Of a stretch of 46,724 bases of DNA, positions 7,501 through 32,364 are shown piece by piece. The number at the start of each line of letters is the position of its first letter. Positions within the stretch are counted from its first letter, which is position 1. The stretch covers positions 1 through 46,724 of the forward strand of contig CAIVGN010000182.1 of NCBI GenBank assembly GCA_903905455.1, given 5' to 3'. The notes under the pieces were generated by a model. That model did not search any database. It worked only from the letters and a program-made list of their open reading frames with translations, and was not told where the DNA came from. Made by a program: the position numbers and the translations under genes. This DNA is from an uncultured Archangium sp. Its GTDB lineage: Bacteria > Myxococcota > Myxococcia > Myxococcales > Myxococcaceae.

Positions 7501-9798
7501 ATGGAAAAACGCTCACGGATCGAGAGGCTCTTCGCGGCGATCATTGCGCGCCGCTGGTTGGTCGTCGGGTTCTGGGCGTTGCTGGTGCCGGGCGCCGCGT
7601 GGCTCGCGCTGCAGATCCCCAGTGACGGGGCCATCGATCGCCTCGTCGTCGAGGCCGACCCCGACGTGGTGCGGACGCGCGAGTTCCAGAAGGTCTTCCC
7701 CGAGGGGCGGCAGATCGTGCTGCTCTTCGAGCCGGCCGGCGACCCCTTCGCGCCCACCGCGCTGCGCGAGCTCGCGGCCGTGGAAGACGCCGTGGGCAAG
7801 GTCAAGGGCGTGGTGACCTTCTCCGGGCTGTCGCTCTTCCGCCGCCGGGAGGCCGACCTCGCCGCCGAGGGCTACGCCGAGCGCTACCGCACCTTCGCCC
7901 TGGGCACGCCGCTGTTCCGCAAGCAGGGCCTCGTCGGCGATCACCACGTGTCGATGGCGGTGACCTTCGAGGCGCCGTCGTCTCACGAGCGTGACGCGAC
8001 GTTGGTGGAGATCGATCGGGTGCTGGCCGGCGTCGAGCACCCCACCCTGGGCAAGCTGCGCCGCGTGGGCCAGCCCTACGTCGAGCAGTGGCTGGAGACG
8101 GAGACCCGCAGCGCGACGGTGCGCTACTTCCCGCTCTTCGGGGCCTTCGTGGTCATCCTGGTGCTGGCGCTCTACCGCTCGTGGCGCGCGCTGCTGGCGA
8201 TCCTCCTCACCCTGGGCGTGACGGTGGTGATCGCGGTCGGCCTCGGCCACCTCTTCGGCTTCTCGCTGACCATCGTCTCGGAGCTGGTGCCGCTGGTGGT
8301 GCTGGTCACCGCGACGAGCACGCTGGTGTACCTGCACTCCCGCTACATCCAGCAGCCGGAGGGCGTGGACCTCGACCAGCACCACGTGTTCTCGCTGGCG
8401 AACAAGGCCCTGCCGGTCACCGCGTCGATCATCGCGGCGATGCTCGGCTTTGCGGCCCTCGCGGTGTCCCAGATTCGGCCCATTCGCGAGATGGGCGTGT
8501 GGACGGCCACGGGCCTGGCCATCTCGTGGCTGACGGCCTTCACCCTGTTCCCCGCGCTGCAGAAGATCTTCAAGGCGCCGACGCGGCAGGGCACCACGGC
8601 CGCGGGCCGGGCCTACGTGCGGCTCGCCGACGCCCTGCCCCACTTCACCTACCGGTTCCGCTTCCTCATCCTCGCCATCGGCACCGTCATCGCGACCGCG
8701 GGTGGCTTCGCGCTCTTCGGCCTGCCCGGGGTGATCAGCCCGATGCGCATGGAGGTCGACGCCATCGAGTACATCGACGAGTCGCTGCCGCTGCGCGCGG
8801 ACATGATGGCCTACGAGAAGGCCATCGCAGGCCTCGCCGCGGTGCGCATCTGGGTGAAGACCGAGGACGGCGCGGTGGTCGAGCCTGCGACCCTGCAGGC
8901 CCTCGATCGCCTGACCACGGCGGTGGGCGCGGAGCCCGGCGTCTCTTCCGTCATCGGCCCCACCACGCTGCTGCGCCTGCGCCGCTACGTGGCGGGCCAG
9001 GGTGACGCGCTGCCCGACGACCCGGAGGCCTTCGCGGCGACCACCTCGGACCTCGAGCAGTTGCTCCTCACCGAGAAGGAGCTGCGCGGCTTCATCGACT
9101 TGAAGACCCTGGGCCAGGCGCAGCTGATGGTGGTGACGAAGCGCGGCGACGCGGCCTCCTTCGAGGCGCTCCGCGGCCGGCTCGACGCGCTGTGGAAGGC
9201 CGAGCAGGCGCGCTCTCCGGCGTTGGCCAAGGCGAGCGCCACGGTGGTGGGCGAGTCGATCCTCCAGGCGAAGATCAGCGAGCACCTCGTGCCCACCCTG
9301 ACCGAGAGCTTCGGGCTGACCGCGGCGCTCATCTTCCTCACCTTCCTCGTGGTGTTCCGCAGCGGGGCGGCGCGCGTGATGGCCATGGTGCCCTCGGTGT
9401 TCGCGATTCTCGCCACGTTCCTCGTGATGCGGCTGACGGGCATCCCGCTCAACGTCGCCACCATCCTCATCGCCACCACGGTCCTGGGCACGACCGAGAA
9501 CGACCAGGTGCACTTCTTCCACCACTACCAGGAGGCGAAGAAGGAAGGCGCGAGCGCCGAGAAGGCCCTGCTGCACACCCTGCACGTCTCGGGTCACGCC
9601 ATCATCTACGCGACGTTGATCAACGCCAGCGGGTTCCTCGCGCTGGCCTTCTCGAACCTGCCTCCCATGCGGCAGTTCGGCATCGTCACCAGCATCGCCT
9701 TCGCGTTCTCGATGATCGCCGACTTCACCGCGCTGCCGGCGGCGCTGTGGCTGGTGATGCGCGAGAAGCCTGACGCGGCGAAGCTCGAGAAGCGCTGA
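7501..9798 (+). CDS. RND/MMPL-family membrane transporter
   Basis: The 765-residue protein has the duplicated MMPL/RND layout. TM1 is about residues 19-38, followed by a large periplasmic loop, a five-helix bundle (about 215-350), a second half starting with another TM near 395, a second loop, and a last bundle (about 605-755). Typical features include TATSTLVYLHSRYI after TM4 and the matching TTVLGTTENDQVHFFHHY in the second half. RND members of this group export lipids or other hydrophobic molecules using the proton gradient. It resembles the lipid-exporter (HpnN/MmpL) branch, but a specific substrate cannot be assigned. The gene is alone on its strand and its stop touches the stop of the helicase gene. 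Confidence 0.88.
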   Translation: MEKRSRIERLFAAIIARRWLVVGFWALLVPGAAWLALQIPSDGAIDRLVVEADPDVVRTREFQKVFPEGRQIVLLFEPAGDPFAPTALRELAAVEDAVGKVKGVVTFSGLSLFRRREADLAAEGYAERYRTFALGTPLFRKQGLVGDHHVSMAVTFEAPSSHERDATLVEIDRVLAGVEHPTLGKLRRVGQPYVEQWLETETRSATVRYFPLFGAFVVILVLALYRSWRALLAILLTLGVTVVIAVGLGHLFGFSLTIVSELVPLVVLVTATSTLVYLHSRYIQQPEGVDLDQHHVFSLANKALPVTASIIAAMLGFAALAVSQIRPIREMGVWTATGLAISWLTAFTLFPALQKIFKAPTRQGTTAAGRAYVRLADALPHFTYRFRFLILAIGTVIATAGGFALFGLPGVISPMRMEVDAIEYIDESLPLRADMMAYEKAIAGLAAVRIWVKTEDGAVVEPATLQALDRLTTAVGAEPGVSSVIGPTTLLRLRRYVAGQGDALPDDPEAFAATTSDLEQLLLTEKELRGFIDLKTLGQAQLMVVTKRGDAASFEALRGRLDALWKAEQARSPALAKASATVVGESILQAKISEHLVPTLTESFGLTAALIFLTFLVVFRSGAARVMAMVPSVFAILATFLVMRLTGIPLNVATILIATTVLGTTENDQVHFFHHYQEAKKEGASAEKALLHTLHVSGHAIIYATLINASGFLALAFSNLPPMRQFGIVTSIAFAFSMIADFTALPAALWLVMREKPDAAKLEKR

Positions 9799-25480: not shown

Positions 25481-27466
25481 GTGAGCCCGGACCCCGCGCC
25501 CCTCGACGTCGACCCCGTGCTGACCCGCGCCCTCGACAACCTCGCCCGCCTCCAGGGCCCCCGGGGGAGTTGGCCCAGCGACTACGGCGGCCCGATGTTC
25601 CTGCTGCCCATGTGGGTGGCGCTGGCCTGGGCGGCGAAGCGGTTGCCCGACGCGCAGCGCACCGCGCGGCTGGTGACCTACTTCACCAACGTGCAGCGCC
25701 CCGACGGCAGCATCGGGCTCCACGCCGAGTCGACCAGCGGCAGCATGTTCACCTCGGTGCTCGGCTACGTGGCGCTGCGACTGCTGGGGGTGCCCGCGGA
25801 CGACGCGCGCGCGACGCGGCTGCTCGCGTGGATCCACGCCAACGGCTCGGCCCTGGGCGCGGCCTCGTGGGGCAAGTTCACGCTGTGCCTGCTGGGGCTC
25901 TACGACTGGAAGGGCATCGTGCCGTTGCTGCCCGAGCTGTGGCTGCTCCCGTACGACGCGCCGATGCACCCCGGCCGCCTGTGGTGCCACGCGCGCATGG
26001 TGTACCTGCCGATGGCCTGGCTCTACGGCATGAAGTCGACGGCGCCCGACGACGCGCTGCTCTCGGCCATCCGCCACGAGCTGTACCAGGGCCAGTACGC
26101 GCGCATCGACTGGGCCGCGCAGCGCGCGGTGGTGGCCAAGGCCGACGACTACCGGCCCAACACCCGGGCGCTCCAGGGCGTCAACCGCGCACAGGTGGGC
26201 TTCGAGATGCTGCCCGGGCTGTTGCGCAAGCGCGCCCTGGCCGAGTGCCTCAAGCTCATCCGCCACGAAGACGCGGCCACCAACGATCTCGACATCGGGC
26301 CGGTCAACGCGGTGCTCAACATGTTCGTGCACCACTTCCGCGGGCCCGAGGGGCGCGCCGACTTCGAGCGCGGGTGGCCGAAGTTCGACGAGGCCTACCT
26401 GTGGGACGGCCACGATGGACTGAAGATGCAGGGCTACAACAACGCCGAGCTCTGGGACACGGCGTTCGCCCTGCAGGCCCTGCTCGCCGCCGAGCGCTCG
26501 TTGCCGGCCGAGCGGCTCACCCCGGTGCTCAGCCGCGCCTACGACTTCCTGCGCGACAACCAGATCCTCGAAGACGTGCCCGAGGCCGCGCGCCACTACC
26601 GCCACGCGAGCAAGGGCGGCTGGCCCTTCAGCGACCGCAAGCACGGCTGGCCCATCACCGACTGCACCTCCGAGGGCTTCAAGAGCGCGCTGGCCCTCGA
26701 GGGGCGCTTCGAGCACGAGGTGCCGCTGCCGCTGCTGCGCGACTCGGTGCGCCTCATCCTCTCGTGGCAGAACGACGACGGCGGCTGGGCCTCGTACGAG
26801 AAGCAGCGCGGCGGCACCTGGCTCGAGGCGCTCAACCCCTCGCAGGTGTTCGGCGACATCATGGTCGACGCCAGCTTCGTGGAGTGCACCAGCGCGTGCC
26901 TGCAGGCGCTGGTCAAGGCGAAGCGGCGCTTCCCCGGGGAATTCGAGCTCGACGGCCCCATCGGCCGCGGCGTGGAGTTCTTGAGGAACGCCCAGCGGCC
27001 CGACGGCAGCTTCGAGGGCAGCTGGGCGGTGTGCTTCACCTACGGCACGTGGTTCGGCGTCTCGGCCCTGCTGGCCACTGGCGCGCACCGGGACGATCCC
27101 TCCATCGGCCGCGCAGTGGACTTCCTGTTGCGCAAGCAGCGCAGCGACGGGAGCTGGAGCGAGCACGGCGACACCTGCCGCGAGCGGGCCTGGCTCGACG
27201 GCGCCGAGGGTCACGCCGCGCAGACCTCCTGGGCGCTCTCGACGCTGGTGCGCGCCGGGTGCCGCGACGCGCCGGCCCTCGAGCGCGCCGCGCGGTGGCT
27301 GTGCGCGCGGCAGGCCAGCGACGGCAGCTGGCCCCGCGAGCCGATGGTGGGCGTGTTCAACCGCACCTGCCTCATCAACTACGACTGCTACCGCCACTAC
27401 TTCCCGGTCTGGGCGCTCGCCGAGTGGAAGAACCTTGGCCTGGCACAGGGAACGACACCCCGGTGA
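25481..27466 (+). CDS. oxidosqualene cyclase, predicted cycloartenol synthase
   Basis: The 661-residue protein is a triterpene cyclase with QW repeats (QRPDGSIG, QNDDGGWASYE, QRPDGSFEGSW, QRSDGSWSE, QASDGSWPRE). The acid motif is ITDCTSEG (Asp 394), the DCTAE type of oxidosqualene cyclases, not the DxDD of squalene-hopene cyclases. Three positions that separate cycloartenol from lanosterol synthases are cycloartenol-like: Tyr 319 in KMQGYN, His 388 and Ile 392 in HGWPITDC (Tyr410, His477 and Ile481 of Arabidopsis CAS1). It is about 70-100 residues shorter than eukaryotic enzymes, mainly at the N-terminus. It should convert 2,3-oxidosqualene to a tetracyclic sterol at the inner membrane. It starts with GTG and lies beside squalene synthase and epoxidase genes. 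Confidence 0.92.
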   Translation: MSPDPAPLDVDPVLTRALDNLARLQGPRGSWPSDYGGPMFLLPMWVALAWAAKRLPDAQRTARLVTYFTNVQRPDGSIGLHAESTSGSMFTSVLGYVALRLLGVPADDARATRLLAWIHANGSALGAASWGKFTLCLLGLYDWKGIVPLLPELWLLPYDAPMHPGRLWCHARMVYLPMAWLYGMKSTAPDDALLSAIRHELYQGQYARIDWAAQRAVVAKADDYRPNTRALQGVNRAQVGFEMLPGLLRKRALAECLKLIRHEDAATNDLDIGPVNAVLNMFVHHFRGPEGRADFERGWPKFDEAYLWDGHDGLKMQGYNNAELWDTAFALQALLAAERSLPAERLTPVLSRAYDFLRDNQILEDVPEAARHYRHASKGGWPFSDRKHGWPITDCTSEGFKSALALEGRFEHEVPLPLLRDSVRLILSWQNDDGGWASYEKQRGGTWLEALNPSQVFGDIMVDASFVECTSACLQALVKAKRRFPGEFELDGPIGRGVEFLRNAQRPDGSFEGSWAVCFTYGTWFGVSALLATGAHRDDPSIGRAVDFLLRKQRSDGSWSEHGDTCRERAWLDGAEGHAAQTSWALSTLVRAGCRDAPALERAARWLCARQASDGSWPREPMVGVFNRTCLINYDCYRHYFPVWALAEWKNLGLAQGTTPR

Positions 27467-27530
27467 GCTGGGGCGACGCGAGGTCCTTCGACTTCGCGTT
27501 CGAGATCCAGCGCGTGGGGCAGCCGCTGCG

Positions 27531-28466
27531 TCAAGCCGGGTGGGGGCGTGAGGCGAGCGCCTTGAGGTCGAGCCGCGCCCCCACGTCGAGCTCGTGGTGA
27601 AGTCCCTCGAAGAGCCGCCCCACGTCGTCGCGAGACACCTTGGCGCCCGAGCCCTGCACCTCGAGGGTCGAAAGGGCCTTGAAGGCCAGCGCCAGCGAGA
27701 GGCCGCAGAAGGCGAGGTAGCCGCGCGGGGCGCCCCCGGCCTGCAGGGCCTGCACGTACTGGTTGCCCCCGTCGAGGTCGGCGCTGGCCAGGGCGAAGAT
27801 CTCCGCGCGGGCCACGGTGCGCGGCAGGTACACCCGCCCGTCGCGCGCGTCGTCGCCCGCATCCTTGAGGATGTTGATCAGCTGCAACCCCTCGCCGAAC
27901 GCGAGCATGTGGCCGCGCAGCTTCGCCGCGTCGTCGGCCAGGCTCGCGCAGTCGTGGAGGAAGACCTCCGTGAGCAGCTCGCCCACGATGCCCGCCACGA
28001 TGTAGCAGTACGACTGCAGGTCTCGCGTCGAGGTCAGCTGCAGGTTGCCGCGCTCGTCGGCCCGCGAGACCACCTGGGCCATGCCCTCCGCGGTGCGGAC
28101 GGTGTGCGCGAGGATGACCTCCCGGACCCGGGGCGCCAGCGTCGTGAGGTGCTGGAGCACCGCGGGCGTCTGCTGCAGCAACTCGAGGTAGCCCGCGTGC
28201 TCGACCGGCGGCGTGGTGAAGCTCCAGGCCACCAGCTTCTCGGCCTGGGCGCGCTGCTGCGCGGAGGGCAACTGCAGCACTTCCACGAAGCGCTCCAGCG
28301 CCTCGATGCGCTGCGTGCGTGGCCAGGCGGTCGCGTCCTCGAAGGTGTCGGCGATGCGGAACAGCAGGTACGCCACGCCCACCGCGGCCCGCGTCGGCTC
28401 GGGGAGGAGCGGGATCGCCAGGGCGAAGGTGCGGCTCGTCTTCAACAGCAGGTCGTCGAGGTCCAC
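27531..28466 (-). CDS. squalene synthase
   Basis: The 311-residue protein belongs to the phytoene/squalene synthase family. The two Asp-rich motifs are DTFED (Asp 40-Asp 44) and NILKDAGDD (Asp 202-Asp 206), which bind Mg-diphosphate. YCYIVAGIVGELLTEVF matches the conserved helix of squalene synthases. It should join two farnesyl diphosphates to squalene in the first step toward sterols. GTG 28466 (VDLDDLLLKTSRTFALA) is chosen because family homology begins there and an upstream extension would overlap the divergent gene. There is no C-terminal membrane anchor, unlike the eukaryotic enzyme. It converges with the cyclase gene and diverges from the epoxidase gene. A phytoene synthase role is unlikely in this context. 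Confidence 0.87.
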   Translation of the reverse strand: MDLDDLLLKTSRTFALAIPLLPEPTRAAVGVAYLLFRIADTFEDATAWPRTQRIEALERFVEVLQLPSAQQRAQAEKLVAWSFTTPPVEHAGYLELLQQTPAVLQHLTTLAPRVREVILAHTVRTAEGMAQVVSRADERGNLQLTSTRDLQSYCYIVAGIVGELLTEVFLHDCASLADDAAKLRGHMLAFGEGLQLINILKDAGDDARDGRVYLPRTVARAEIFALASADLDGGNQYVQALQAGGAPRGYLAFCGLSLALAFKALSTLEVQGSGAKVSRDDVGRLFEGLHHELDVGARLDLKALASRPHPA

Positions 28467-28508
28467 GGCGCGGCTCGGTAGCTGATGTCTCGGAGTCGCG
28501 CACGTTCT

Positions 28509-28535
28509 GACACCCGTCACTGGCTGACGTGTGTC
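28509..28535. promoter_or_regulatory. inverted repeat between squalene synthase and epoxidase genes
   Basis: GACACCCGTCA (28509-28519) and TGACGTGTGTC (28525-28535) form an 11-bp inverted repeat with one mismatch around CTGGC. It lies in the 118-base divergent intergenic region, 43 bases upstream of one start and 49 of the other. Its position and symmetry suit a dimeric regulator controlling both genes; the regulator is not known. Confidence 0.5.
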
Positions 28536-28584
28536 GTCCGACGAGTGTTGCGAGCGCTTCGAGCGGCCCGGTAAGCACGCGCGC

Positions 28585-29937
28585 ATGTCGCTCGAGGTGA
28601 TCGTCGTCGGTGGTGGCTTTACCGGAATGGCGTCGGCCGCGGCGCTCGCGCAGCAGGGCGCGACGGTGCGGGTGTTCGAGGCCGCGCAGACCACGGCGCC
28701 GCAGTTTCGGGGCGAGCTGATTCACCCGCGCGGCGTGCGCGGCCTCGAGTCGCTGGGGCTCAAGGTGCCGCTGTTCGAGCGCGGCGGCGTGGCGGTCAAC
28801 GGCTTCGCGGTCAGCCAGCACGAGGGCGCGGCGCCGGTGCTCCTGCCCTACGAAGACGCGCAGGGGCCGGGCCTGGGCATCGATCACCCCGCCATGGTGT
28901 TGACCATGCGCGCGCAGCTCGCCGCGCGCCCCAACGTGAGCATCACCACCGGCGCGCGCATCGCCGACTTCGTGCGCAGCGGCCCGCGCATCGTGGGGGT
29001 GCGCACCGCCGACGGGCAGGAGCACCTCGCCGACCTCGTGGTGGTCGCCGACGGCCGCAGCTCGAAGCTGCGCCCGCTGCTGGGCCTCGAGCCCGAGGTG
29101 AAGCTGCTCTCGTACACCGTGGCCTTCGGCGTCGACGGTGAGCTGCCGCACGGCCGCATGGGCCACGTGTTCCTCGGCGCGCCCGGGCCGATCCTCGCGT
29201 ACCCCTACGCCGAGGGGCGCATCCGCTTCTGCGTCGACGTGGCGCTGGGCGCACCGAAGGGTCGCGAGGCGCTGGTGGCGCTGATCTGCGAGCAGTACGC
29301 GCGCGTGGTGCCCTCTCCGCTGCGCGAGGCGATGGTGAAGTCGCTGCGCGAGACCCCCTTCGAGGCGTGCGCCAACCACTCCATCAGCACCGCGGCGTGC
29401 GCGGCGCCGGGCGTGGCGCTGGTGGGCGACGCGGGCGGCTGCGGCCACCCCTTGACCGCCTCGGGCATGACCAACGCGATGAACGACGTGCTCACGCTCG
29501 CCGAGCTGGTCGGGGCGCGCGGGCCCGACGACGCGGCGCTCACCGAGTACCAGCGCCGTCGCTACGACTTCGTGCGCATGCGCGAGCTGTTCACCGAGGC
29601 GCTCTACGAGGTGTTCCGCGGCCACGACGACGGCTCGAAGGCCCTGCAGAGCGGCGTGTTCCGCTACTGGTCGTCGTCCGCGCGCTCGCGCCGGGCGTCG
29701 ATGAACATCCTCTCGGGTGAAGAGGTGCGGGTCTCGCGCTTCGTCGCCGAGTATTCGCGGGTGTTCCGCGGCTCGGCCGTCGACGTCATCAAGCGCTCGG
29801 CCTGGCAGCCGAGGGCCGGTGGCGCCCGGCTCAAGTCGCTGGCGAAGACGAGCCTCGGGCGCTTCAGCGCCGCGGCCGGGCGCACCGCGCGCAAGGTCGT
29901 CGACCGTTACCGCCTGGGGCTCCACCCGCTACCGTGA
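28585..29937 (+). CDS. squalene epoxidase (monooxygenase)
   Basis: The 450-residue flavoprotein has an N-terminal FAD-binding fold (VIVVGGGFTGMASA, residues 4-17, with acidic Glu 32 ending the second strand). Diagnostic squalene-epoxidase motifs follow: GELIHPRGVRGLESLGL (43-59), a DGRSSKLR motif (156-163) and GDAGGCGHPLTASGMT (281-296), close to the GDA..RHPLTGGGMT signature. It should epoxidise squalene with O2 to 2,3-oxidosqualene, the substrate of the cyclase at 25481. ATG 28585 is used because it places the FAD motif at residue 9; GTG 28531 is an in-frame alternative. There is no long N-terminal membrane anchor; the C-terminal basic tail may help membrane contact. It diverges from squalene synthase. 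Confidence 0.88.
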   Translation: MSLEVIVVGGGFTGMASAAALAQQGATVRVFEAAQTTAPQFRGELIHPRGVRGLESLGLKVPLFERGGVAVNGFAVSQHEGAAPVLLPYEDAQGPGLGIDHPAMVLTMRAQLAARPNVSITTGARIADFVRSGPRIVGVRTADGQEHLADLVVVADGRSSKLRPLLGLEPEVKLLSYTVAFGVDGELPHGRMGHVFLGAPGPILAYPYAEGRIRFCVDVALGAPKGREALVALICEQYARVVPSPLREAMVKSLRETPFEACANHSISTAACAAPGVALVGDAGGCGHPLTASGMTNAMNDVLTLAELVGARGPDDAALTEYQRRRYDFVRMRELFTEALYEVFRGHDDGSKALQSGVFRYWSSSARSRRASMNILSGEEVRVSRFVAEYSRVFRGSAVDVIKRSAWQPRAGGARLKSLAKTSLGRFSAAAGRTARKVVDRYRLGLHPLP

Positions 29938-31474: not shown

Positions 31475-31545
31475 GGGCAGGGCCCGGAAGGACCGGGGCG
31501 TCCACTGTAGCGGCCTGACGCGCGAGGGTGCTACCTCGTGGGCCC

Positions 31546-32364
31546 ATGAGCTCACTCAAAGGTCGCACCCTGTTCGTCACCGGCGCCAGCCGCGGCATCG
31601 GCCTGGCCATCGCCCTGCGGGCCGCCCGAGACGGCGCCAACGTCGCCATCGCCGCCAAGACCGCGGAGCCGAACCCCAAGCTCGAGGGCACCATCTACAC
31701 CGCGGCGGCCGCCATCGAGGCGGCGGGCGGCAAGGCGCTGCCCATGATGTGTGACATTCGCGACGAGGCCCAGGTGCAGGCCTGCGTGCAGAAGACCGTC
31801 GAGACCTTCGGCGCGCTCGACATCTGCGTGAACAACGCCAGCGCCATCAGCCTCACCGGCACGCTGGAGACCACCATGAAGCGCTACGACCTGATGCACC
31901 AGGTCAACACGCGCGGCACCTTCCTCGTCAGCCGCACCTGCCTGCCCCACCTGCTGCAGTCGAAGTTCACGCCGCACATCCTGAACCTCTCGCCGCCGCT
32001 CTCGATGAAGACCAAGTGGTTCGAGAACCACACCGCGTACACCATGGCCAAGTTCGGCATGTCGATGTGCGTGCTGGGCATGGCCGGCGAGTTCAAGGAC
32101 CAGGTGGCGATCAACGCCCTGTGGCCGCGCACCACCATCGCCACCGCGGCGGTGAACATGCTCGGCGGGGACGAGCTGATGAAGGCCAGCCGCACGCCGG
32201 AGATCATGGCCGACGCGGCGCACGTCATCTTCACCCGCGGCAAAGACTTCACCGGGAACTTCCTCATCGACGACGAGGTGCTGCGCAGCGCGGGGGTCAC
32301 CGACTTCAAGCGCTACCAGGTCGACCCCAACATCGAACCCACGCCCGACTTCTTCGTCGACTGA
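31546..32364 (+). CDS. HSDL2-like short-chain dehydrogenase
   Basis: The 272-residue protein is an SDR with TGASRGIG (12-19), NNAS (96-99), an active Ser in LNLSPPL (149) and YTMAK (Tyr 165, Lys 169). Stretches such as KTAEPNPKLEGTIYTAA, NNASAISLTGTLET and AYTMAKFGMSMCVLGMA are close to vertebrate hydroxysteroid dehydrogenase-like protein 2, without the C-terminal SCP2 domain. NAD(P)-dependent oxidation of a lipid alcohol is likely; the substrate is not fixed. Its place 1.6 kb after the sterol genes makes a sterol or fatty-acyl substrate worth testing, but the family is also common outside sterol clusters. ATG 31546 is used; no clear ribosome binding site is seen. Confidence 0.87.
   Translation: MSSLKGRTLFVTGASRGIGLAIALRAARDGANVAIAAKTAEPNPKLEGTIYTAAAAIEAAGGKALPMMCDIRDEAQVQACVQKTVETFGALDICVNNASAISLTGTLETTMKRYDLMHQVNTRGTFLVSRTCLPHLLQSKFTPHILNLSPPLSMKTKWFENHTAYTMAKFGMSMCVLGMAGEFKDQVAINALWPRTTIATAAVNMLGGDELMKASRTPEIMADAAHVIFTRGKDFTGNFLIDDEVLRSAGVTDFKRYQVDPNIEPTPDFFVD

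Follow-up and report, generated by a model that had tools for sequence, protein, structure and literature searches.

The closest described relatives of the genes analysed here are those of cultured myxobacteria. The Cystobacter, Stigmatella and Corallococcus genes that form group 2c of Wei et al. 2016 (PMC4919349) encode a squalene synthase, a squalene epoxidase and an oxidosqualene cyclase close together, with no demethylation genes nearby, and a passage of the same paper, citing Bode et al. 2003, records the detection of cycloartenol in Stigmatella and Cystobacter. According to a 2025 survey (PMC12004948), cycloartenol-type cyclases occur through the cultured Myxococcaceae, without downstream enzymes except for a C-24 reductase in Cystobacter; its authors infer a single cyclase, ancestral to the Myxococcaceae and vertically inherited. 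A more distant system is that of Methylococcus capsulatus, whose sterols derive from lanosterol and whose cyclase belongs to group 1, the lanosterol type. The sterol genes of Myxococcota are used in debates over the origin of eukaryotic sterols and over the meaning of fossil steranes.

Since cycloartenol synthesis in Myxococcaceae is already known, its extension to another, uncultured genus is to be expected. The interest of the present locus lies not in the fact that a bacterium possesses a sterol module, but in its membership of a separate uncultured lineage, which conflicts with the single-origin account.

The window, by which we mean the whole stretch of 46,724 nucleotides that was analysed, is the entire contig C182 of a Myxococcota genome bin (8.6 Mb in 251 contigs, 97.8% complete) placed in GTDB family f1, the family of Corallococcus and Myxococcus and of the group 2c genes. 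An earlier, sequence-only reading had proposed three adjacent genes here, for a cyclase (25481), a squalene synthase (27531) and a squalene epoxidase (28585). All three are open and identifiable, and the end coordinate of 29937 is right. To that reading, which lacked the strands, we add that the squalene synthase lies on the minus strand and the other two genes on the plus strand. The features are as follows.

25481..27466, plus strand: oxidosqualene cyclase of predicted cycloartenol-synthase type, 661 aa (family models, alignment, tree)
26435..26437, plus strand: codon of Tyr319, equivalent to Thr381 of human lanosterol synthase (LSS) (alignment)
26642..26644, plus strand: codon of His388, equivalent to human Cys449 (alignment)
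26654..26656, plus strand: codon of Ile392, equivalent to human Val453 (alignment)
26660..26674, plus strand: DCTSE catalytic acid motif with Asp394, equivalent to human Asp455 (alignment)
27531..28466, minus strand: likely squalene synthase, ERG9-like, 311 aa (family models; start refined from orthologues)
28467..28584, no strand: divergent intergenic region of 118 bp between synthase and epoxidase, probably a promoter region (gene positions)
28585..29937, plus strand: squalene epoxidase (squalene monooxygenase), 450 aa (PF08491, closest solved relative, orthologues)

The cyclase and synthase genes are thus convergent, with 64 bp between them, and the synthase and epoxidase genes divergent. 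The raw open reading frame of the synthase covers 27531-28694; its orthologues set the start at an inner GTG near 28466 (MDLDDLLLKTSRTFALAIPLLPEP), and they agree with the epoxidase start at the ATG at 28585. The trio is kept together in G067, G069, G070, G154, G108 and L058. Because the same genes in the same orientations are found again in several related genomes, the cluster is not a product of chance.

Since the genome is a draft bin of 251 contigs, it is natural to ask whether this contig is foreign DNA that was binned with it by mistake. In G067 and G070, however, the cluster has the same block of epoxidase, MopE-type, SDR and SpoIID genes at its side, and in G069 and G070 a TonB-receptor gene lies ahead of it; moreover, the cyclase and rpoB trees both group the window with the same genus. 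The synteny with relatives rules out contamination for practical purposes, and we regard it as exceedingly improbable.

Two other genes of the window may be mentioned here. The SDR gene (31528-32364, plus strand), which belongs to the PRK08278 (HSDL2-like) family, stays close to the cluster in two relatives, G067 and G070; neither its family match nor its synteny gives evidence of action on sterols. An MMPL/RND transporter (7501-9798, plus strand), 16 kb from the cyclase, matches PF03176 at 96 bits and the sterol-sensing model PF12349 at 43 bits. BstA, a sterol transporter of methanotrophs, belongs to the same superfamily (PMC10942540), but a PF12349 match may be common to MMPL proteins in general, and the distance to the cyclase is large.

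The identity of the cyclase is supported by several comparisons. The protein matches PF13243 (187 bits) and PF13249 (138 bits), and it passes the cut-off of TIGR01787 (561 bits against 323). Among solved structures, human lanosterol synthase is its best relative with 547 bits, as against 133 bits for squalene-hopene cyclase. The sequence-only reading had pointed to a DCTSE acid motif in place of DxDD, and the motif is indeed present. All of the catalytic residues are kept (H170, D394, C395, E398, Y439 and C469 correspond to human H232, D455, C456, E459, Y503 and C533), whereas the squalene-hopene cyclases of the outgroup differ at C395, E398 and C469. The squalene-hopene cyclases of related Myxococcota (L153-L155) share a superfamily with the window's cyclase, but they are without the DCTxE motif, show 26-30% identity to it, and form the outgroup of the tree. 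The phylogeny that had been suggested as a check places the gene with the oxidosqualene cyclases, outside the squalene-hopene cyclases. Judged by its sequence, the product of 25481-27466 is an oxidosqualene cyclase, and not a squalene-hopene cyclase.

One score requires comment. Against TIGR03463 the cyclase reaches 699 bits, below the cut-off of 851, which is passed by the tested cyclases of the cultured clade and by that of M. capsulatus. A relative from the window's own clade (709 bits) and the cyclase of the methanotroph Methylobacter (651 bits) are also below the cut-off. Since a methanotroph oxidosqualene cyclase falls short as well, the shortfall reflects divergence and not a different function.

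We now turn to the product of the cyclase. In the alignment to the human enzyme, Y319, H388 and I392 fall opposite T381, C449 and V453, and Tyr, His and Ile stand at exactly the positions named in the earlier reading, forming the cycloartenol-type set. These sites correspond to Arabidopsis Y410, H477 and I481, which separate cycloartenol from lanosterol synthases; the role of the three positions is established (Meyer et al. 2000, cited in PMC12004948). In the residue alignment, the full Y/H/I set is present in 24 of 27 sequences of the window's clade and in 23 of 25 of the cultured Myxococcaceae clade, as well as in two Methylothermaceae bins. Human lanosterol synthase (1W6K) is 42% identical to the window's cyclase and has the catalytic residues in common, but it carries T/C/V at the product positions. 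Similarly, the M. capsulatus cyclase shares the superfamily, the acid motif and an adjacent epoxidase gene with the window's, but it is 38% identical, carries A/H/V, and is distant in the tree. Other methanotrophs have mostly Y/N/V or Y/Q/V. Given these methanotroph residues, neither Tyr nor His is diagnostic by itself, whereas the full set is.

The triad is not known to be sufficient in a clade whose identity to the cultured one is only about 50-55%, and the neighbouring residues of the window's cyclase are unusual (YNNAE, as against YNSSQ or YNSSE elsewhere). Even with the triad, the enzyme might therefore be a sterol cyclase that yields chiefly lanosterol or parkeol, or else a mixture of products. 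We consider this unlikely: the full set runs throughout the two Myxococcota clades and is found in none of the sampled lanosterol-type sequences of Methylococcus, Methylobacter and Methylomonas, and the sister clade includes the family of the measured cycloartenol producers (PMC4919349). From the Y/H/I set and the family, cycloartenol is most likely the product. In this sense the sequence supports the earlier proposal that a bacterium here carries a module leading from squalene to sterol and containing a cyclase of cycloartenol type, with the product as a prediction. Genes, of course, do not guarantee a product. For example, Corallococcus coralloides has cyclase and epoxidase genes, and its culture yielded only squalene (PMC4919349, Tables 3 and 4).

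Within the two Myxococcota clades, the cyclases L015 (G165), L063, L075, L161 and L163 carry changed product residues (Y/N/T, Y/N/V, E/Q/V and Y/Q/V), so that the product may vary there.

The two partner enzymes are identified with different degrees of confidence. The epoxidase matches PF08491 (101 bits) over an FAD-binding fold, and among solved structures human squalene monooxygenase is the closest to it, with 113 bits versus 69 for the next. The synthase matches PF00494 at 123 bits, its best solved relative is a squalene synthase, and among the specific models it scores 91 bits for squalene synthase versus 46, 62 and 45 for HpnC, HpnD and CrtB, respectively. Because 91 bits is below the squalene synthase equivalog cut-off of 287, its function as a squalene synthase of the ERG9 type is likely, not certain.

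Furthermore, the genome contains two more PF00494 (SQS_PSY) genes, both closest to HpnD/CrtB, and the cluster synthase may thus not be the sole source of squalene. These two genes, together with the weak score of the cluster synthase against its own model, would also suit a stronger claim: that squalene comes from another enzyme, while the cluster gene makes something else, such as a carotenoid precursor. Both the model scores (91 bits versus 62 for HpnD) and the best solved relative, however, put the cluster gene closest to true squalene synthase, and the gene is conserved beside the epoxidase and the cyclase; we give this claim little credence.

Taken as a squalene synthase, an epoxidase and a cyclase, the three enzymes very probably convert farnesyl diphosphate to a tetracyclic sterol, with cycloartenol as the most likely one. 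The enzymes themselves are identified by sequence, and we infer each reaction and product from their families. The squalene synthase would join two farnesyl diphosphates into squalene, which the flavin monooxygenase would convert with O2 to (3S)-2,3-oxidosqualene. In the cyclase, Asp394 would protonate the epoxide and the chain would fold to the protosteryl cation, and Tyr319, His388 and Ile392 would steer the last deprotonation to the 9,19-cyclopropane. The sterol is probably left as cycloartenol or modified only lightly, since no CYP51 was found in the genome.

This last point depends upon a search of the 97.8% complete genome, which gave three P450 matches, none of them CYP51-like. Two have non-CYP51 best relatives and about 25% identity to bacterial CYP51, as compared with at least 41% among the CYP51s of different bacteria, and are thereby ruled out as CYP51; the third match is short and weak. 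No hopene cyclase was found in the genome either, and among the genes that lie between the cluster genes of relatives (as in the 5 kb that separate cyclase and synthase in L053) no sterol enzymes are obvious by eye. A distant hopene-cyclase-like family (L156-L159, in G154, G070, G069 and G150), which scores 258 bits against TIGR01507, below its cut-off, sits on a very long branch; it occurs in genomes of the window's own genus and of a neighbouring one, and it was not found in the window's genome.

The earlier reading had seen no demethylase or reductase beside the cyclase. Locally this is true, but the same genome carries an ERG4/ERG24-family reductase elsewhere (C65:51833-52876 in G000; L038:9286-10380). 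It matches PF01222 at 154 bits, its best solved relative is the bacterial delta-14 sterol reductase 4quv (143 bits), and it keeps the conserved C-terminal region. Reductases of this type occur in 5 of the 6 genomes of the genus and 17 of the 96 of the family, and in none of the genomes of genera g3-g7 and g19, which include carriers of the cultured-type cyclase.

Together with the ten PF04116 (fatty-acid-hydroxylase/sterol-desaturase-type) genes of the genome, the reductase suggests a more complex pathway, in which it, and possibly some of the ten, would modify the sterol. However, without a CYP51 in the genome the reductase would lack a source of delta-14 substrate, and its gene, which is not close to the cyclase and sits beside housekeeping genes, is also present in genomes that lack a cyclase (G111, G148, G150-G153), so that its distribution does not follow that of the cyclase. 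We hold such a pathway to be conceivable but the lesser prospect. Given the cyclase-less relatives and the missing CYP51, we do not count the reductase as a pathway member, and we retain the three-enzyme route.

The relationship of these genes to those of cultured Myxococcaceae is addressed by a cyclase tree rooted with a confirmed squalene-hopene cyclase outgroup. The window's cyclase falls in a clade of 27 sequences (clade A, support 100/100) from uncultured bacteria, nearly all of them Myxococcota. A clade of 15 sequences (clade B, 98/99) from Corallococcus, Myxococcus eversor and other members of the family is sister to it (support 97/97). Clade A also holds members of families f6, f11 and f18, which branch below the sequences of f1 itself. 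An rpoB tree, made by a quick method, divides the GTDB family into two halves, each of which has cyclases of a single clade, A in one half and B in the other. When all cyclases of the family are constrained to group together, the cost is 102 log-likelihood units (p 0.002) in the fairer, pruned test with doubtful rows out. A stricter test costs 287 units (p 5e-13), and is too strict, in that it leaves the family member L161 outside the set. The window's cyclase is thus separate from the Corallococcus/Myxococcus clade, and forced union with it is rejected.

The partner genes and their layout follow the same division. Quick trees of the epoxidase and the synthase repeat the split of the cyclase tree, and the gene order of clade A, cyclase(+) synthase(-) epoxidase(+), differs from the epoxidase(-) synthase(+) cyclase(+) of Corallococcus and Myxococcus. 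The group 2c genes, which share the cycloartenol triad and the close spacing, differ from the window's in this gene order and in belonging to clade B; identity is about 50-55% for the cyclase and 33-40% for the epoxidase and synthase. By these sequence comparisons, the window's genes belong to a distinct Myxococcota sterol-enzyme lineage, sister to that of cultured Myxococcaceae. We found no characterised cyclase of clade A in the literature.

That one GTDB family contains two cyclase lineages, each with its own gene order and partner enzymes, weakens the reading of a single ancestral cyclase and conflicts with the published inference (PMC12004948). The pattern suggests that the genes were acquired several times, or that an old duplication was followed by losses. 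A more specific version, in which each half of the family separately acquired its own cyclase/epoxidase/synthase set and the uncultured half, with its sterol-type reductase, makes a sterol new with respect to cultured Myxococcaceae, is rather doubtful.

 That bacterial sterol synthesis is rare, as the sequence-only reading had implied, was an overstatement: a nearly full-length relative of the cyclase is present in at least 56 of the 195 Myxococcota genomes searched, and the passage of PMC4919349 cited above already places cycloartenol in Stigmatella and Cystobacter. A search of viral contigs with the cyclase gave no match. Outside the Myxococcota, nine Verrucomicrobia oxidosqualene cyclases (L103, L104, L107, L109-L111, L113, L114 and L130) have Tyr at the equivalent of His232 and Phe at that of Y319, as in the plant cyclase 8j5z, plus Cys at the equivalent of Tyr503; their residues suggest that they possibly make a non-sterol triterpene.
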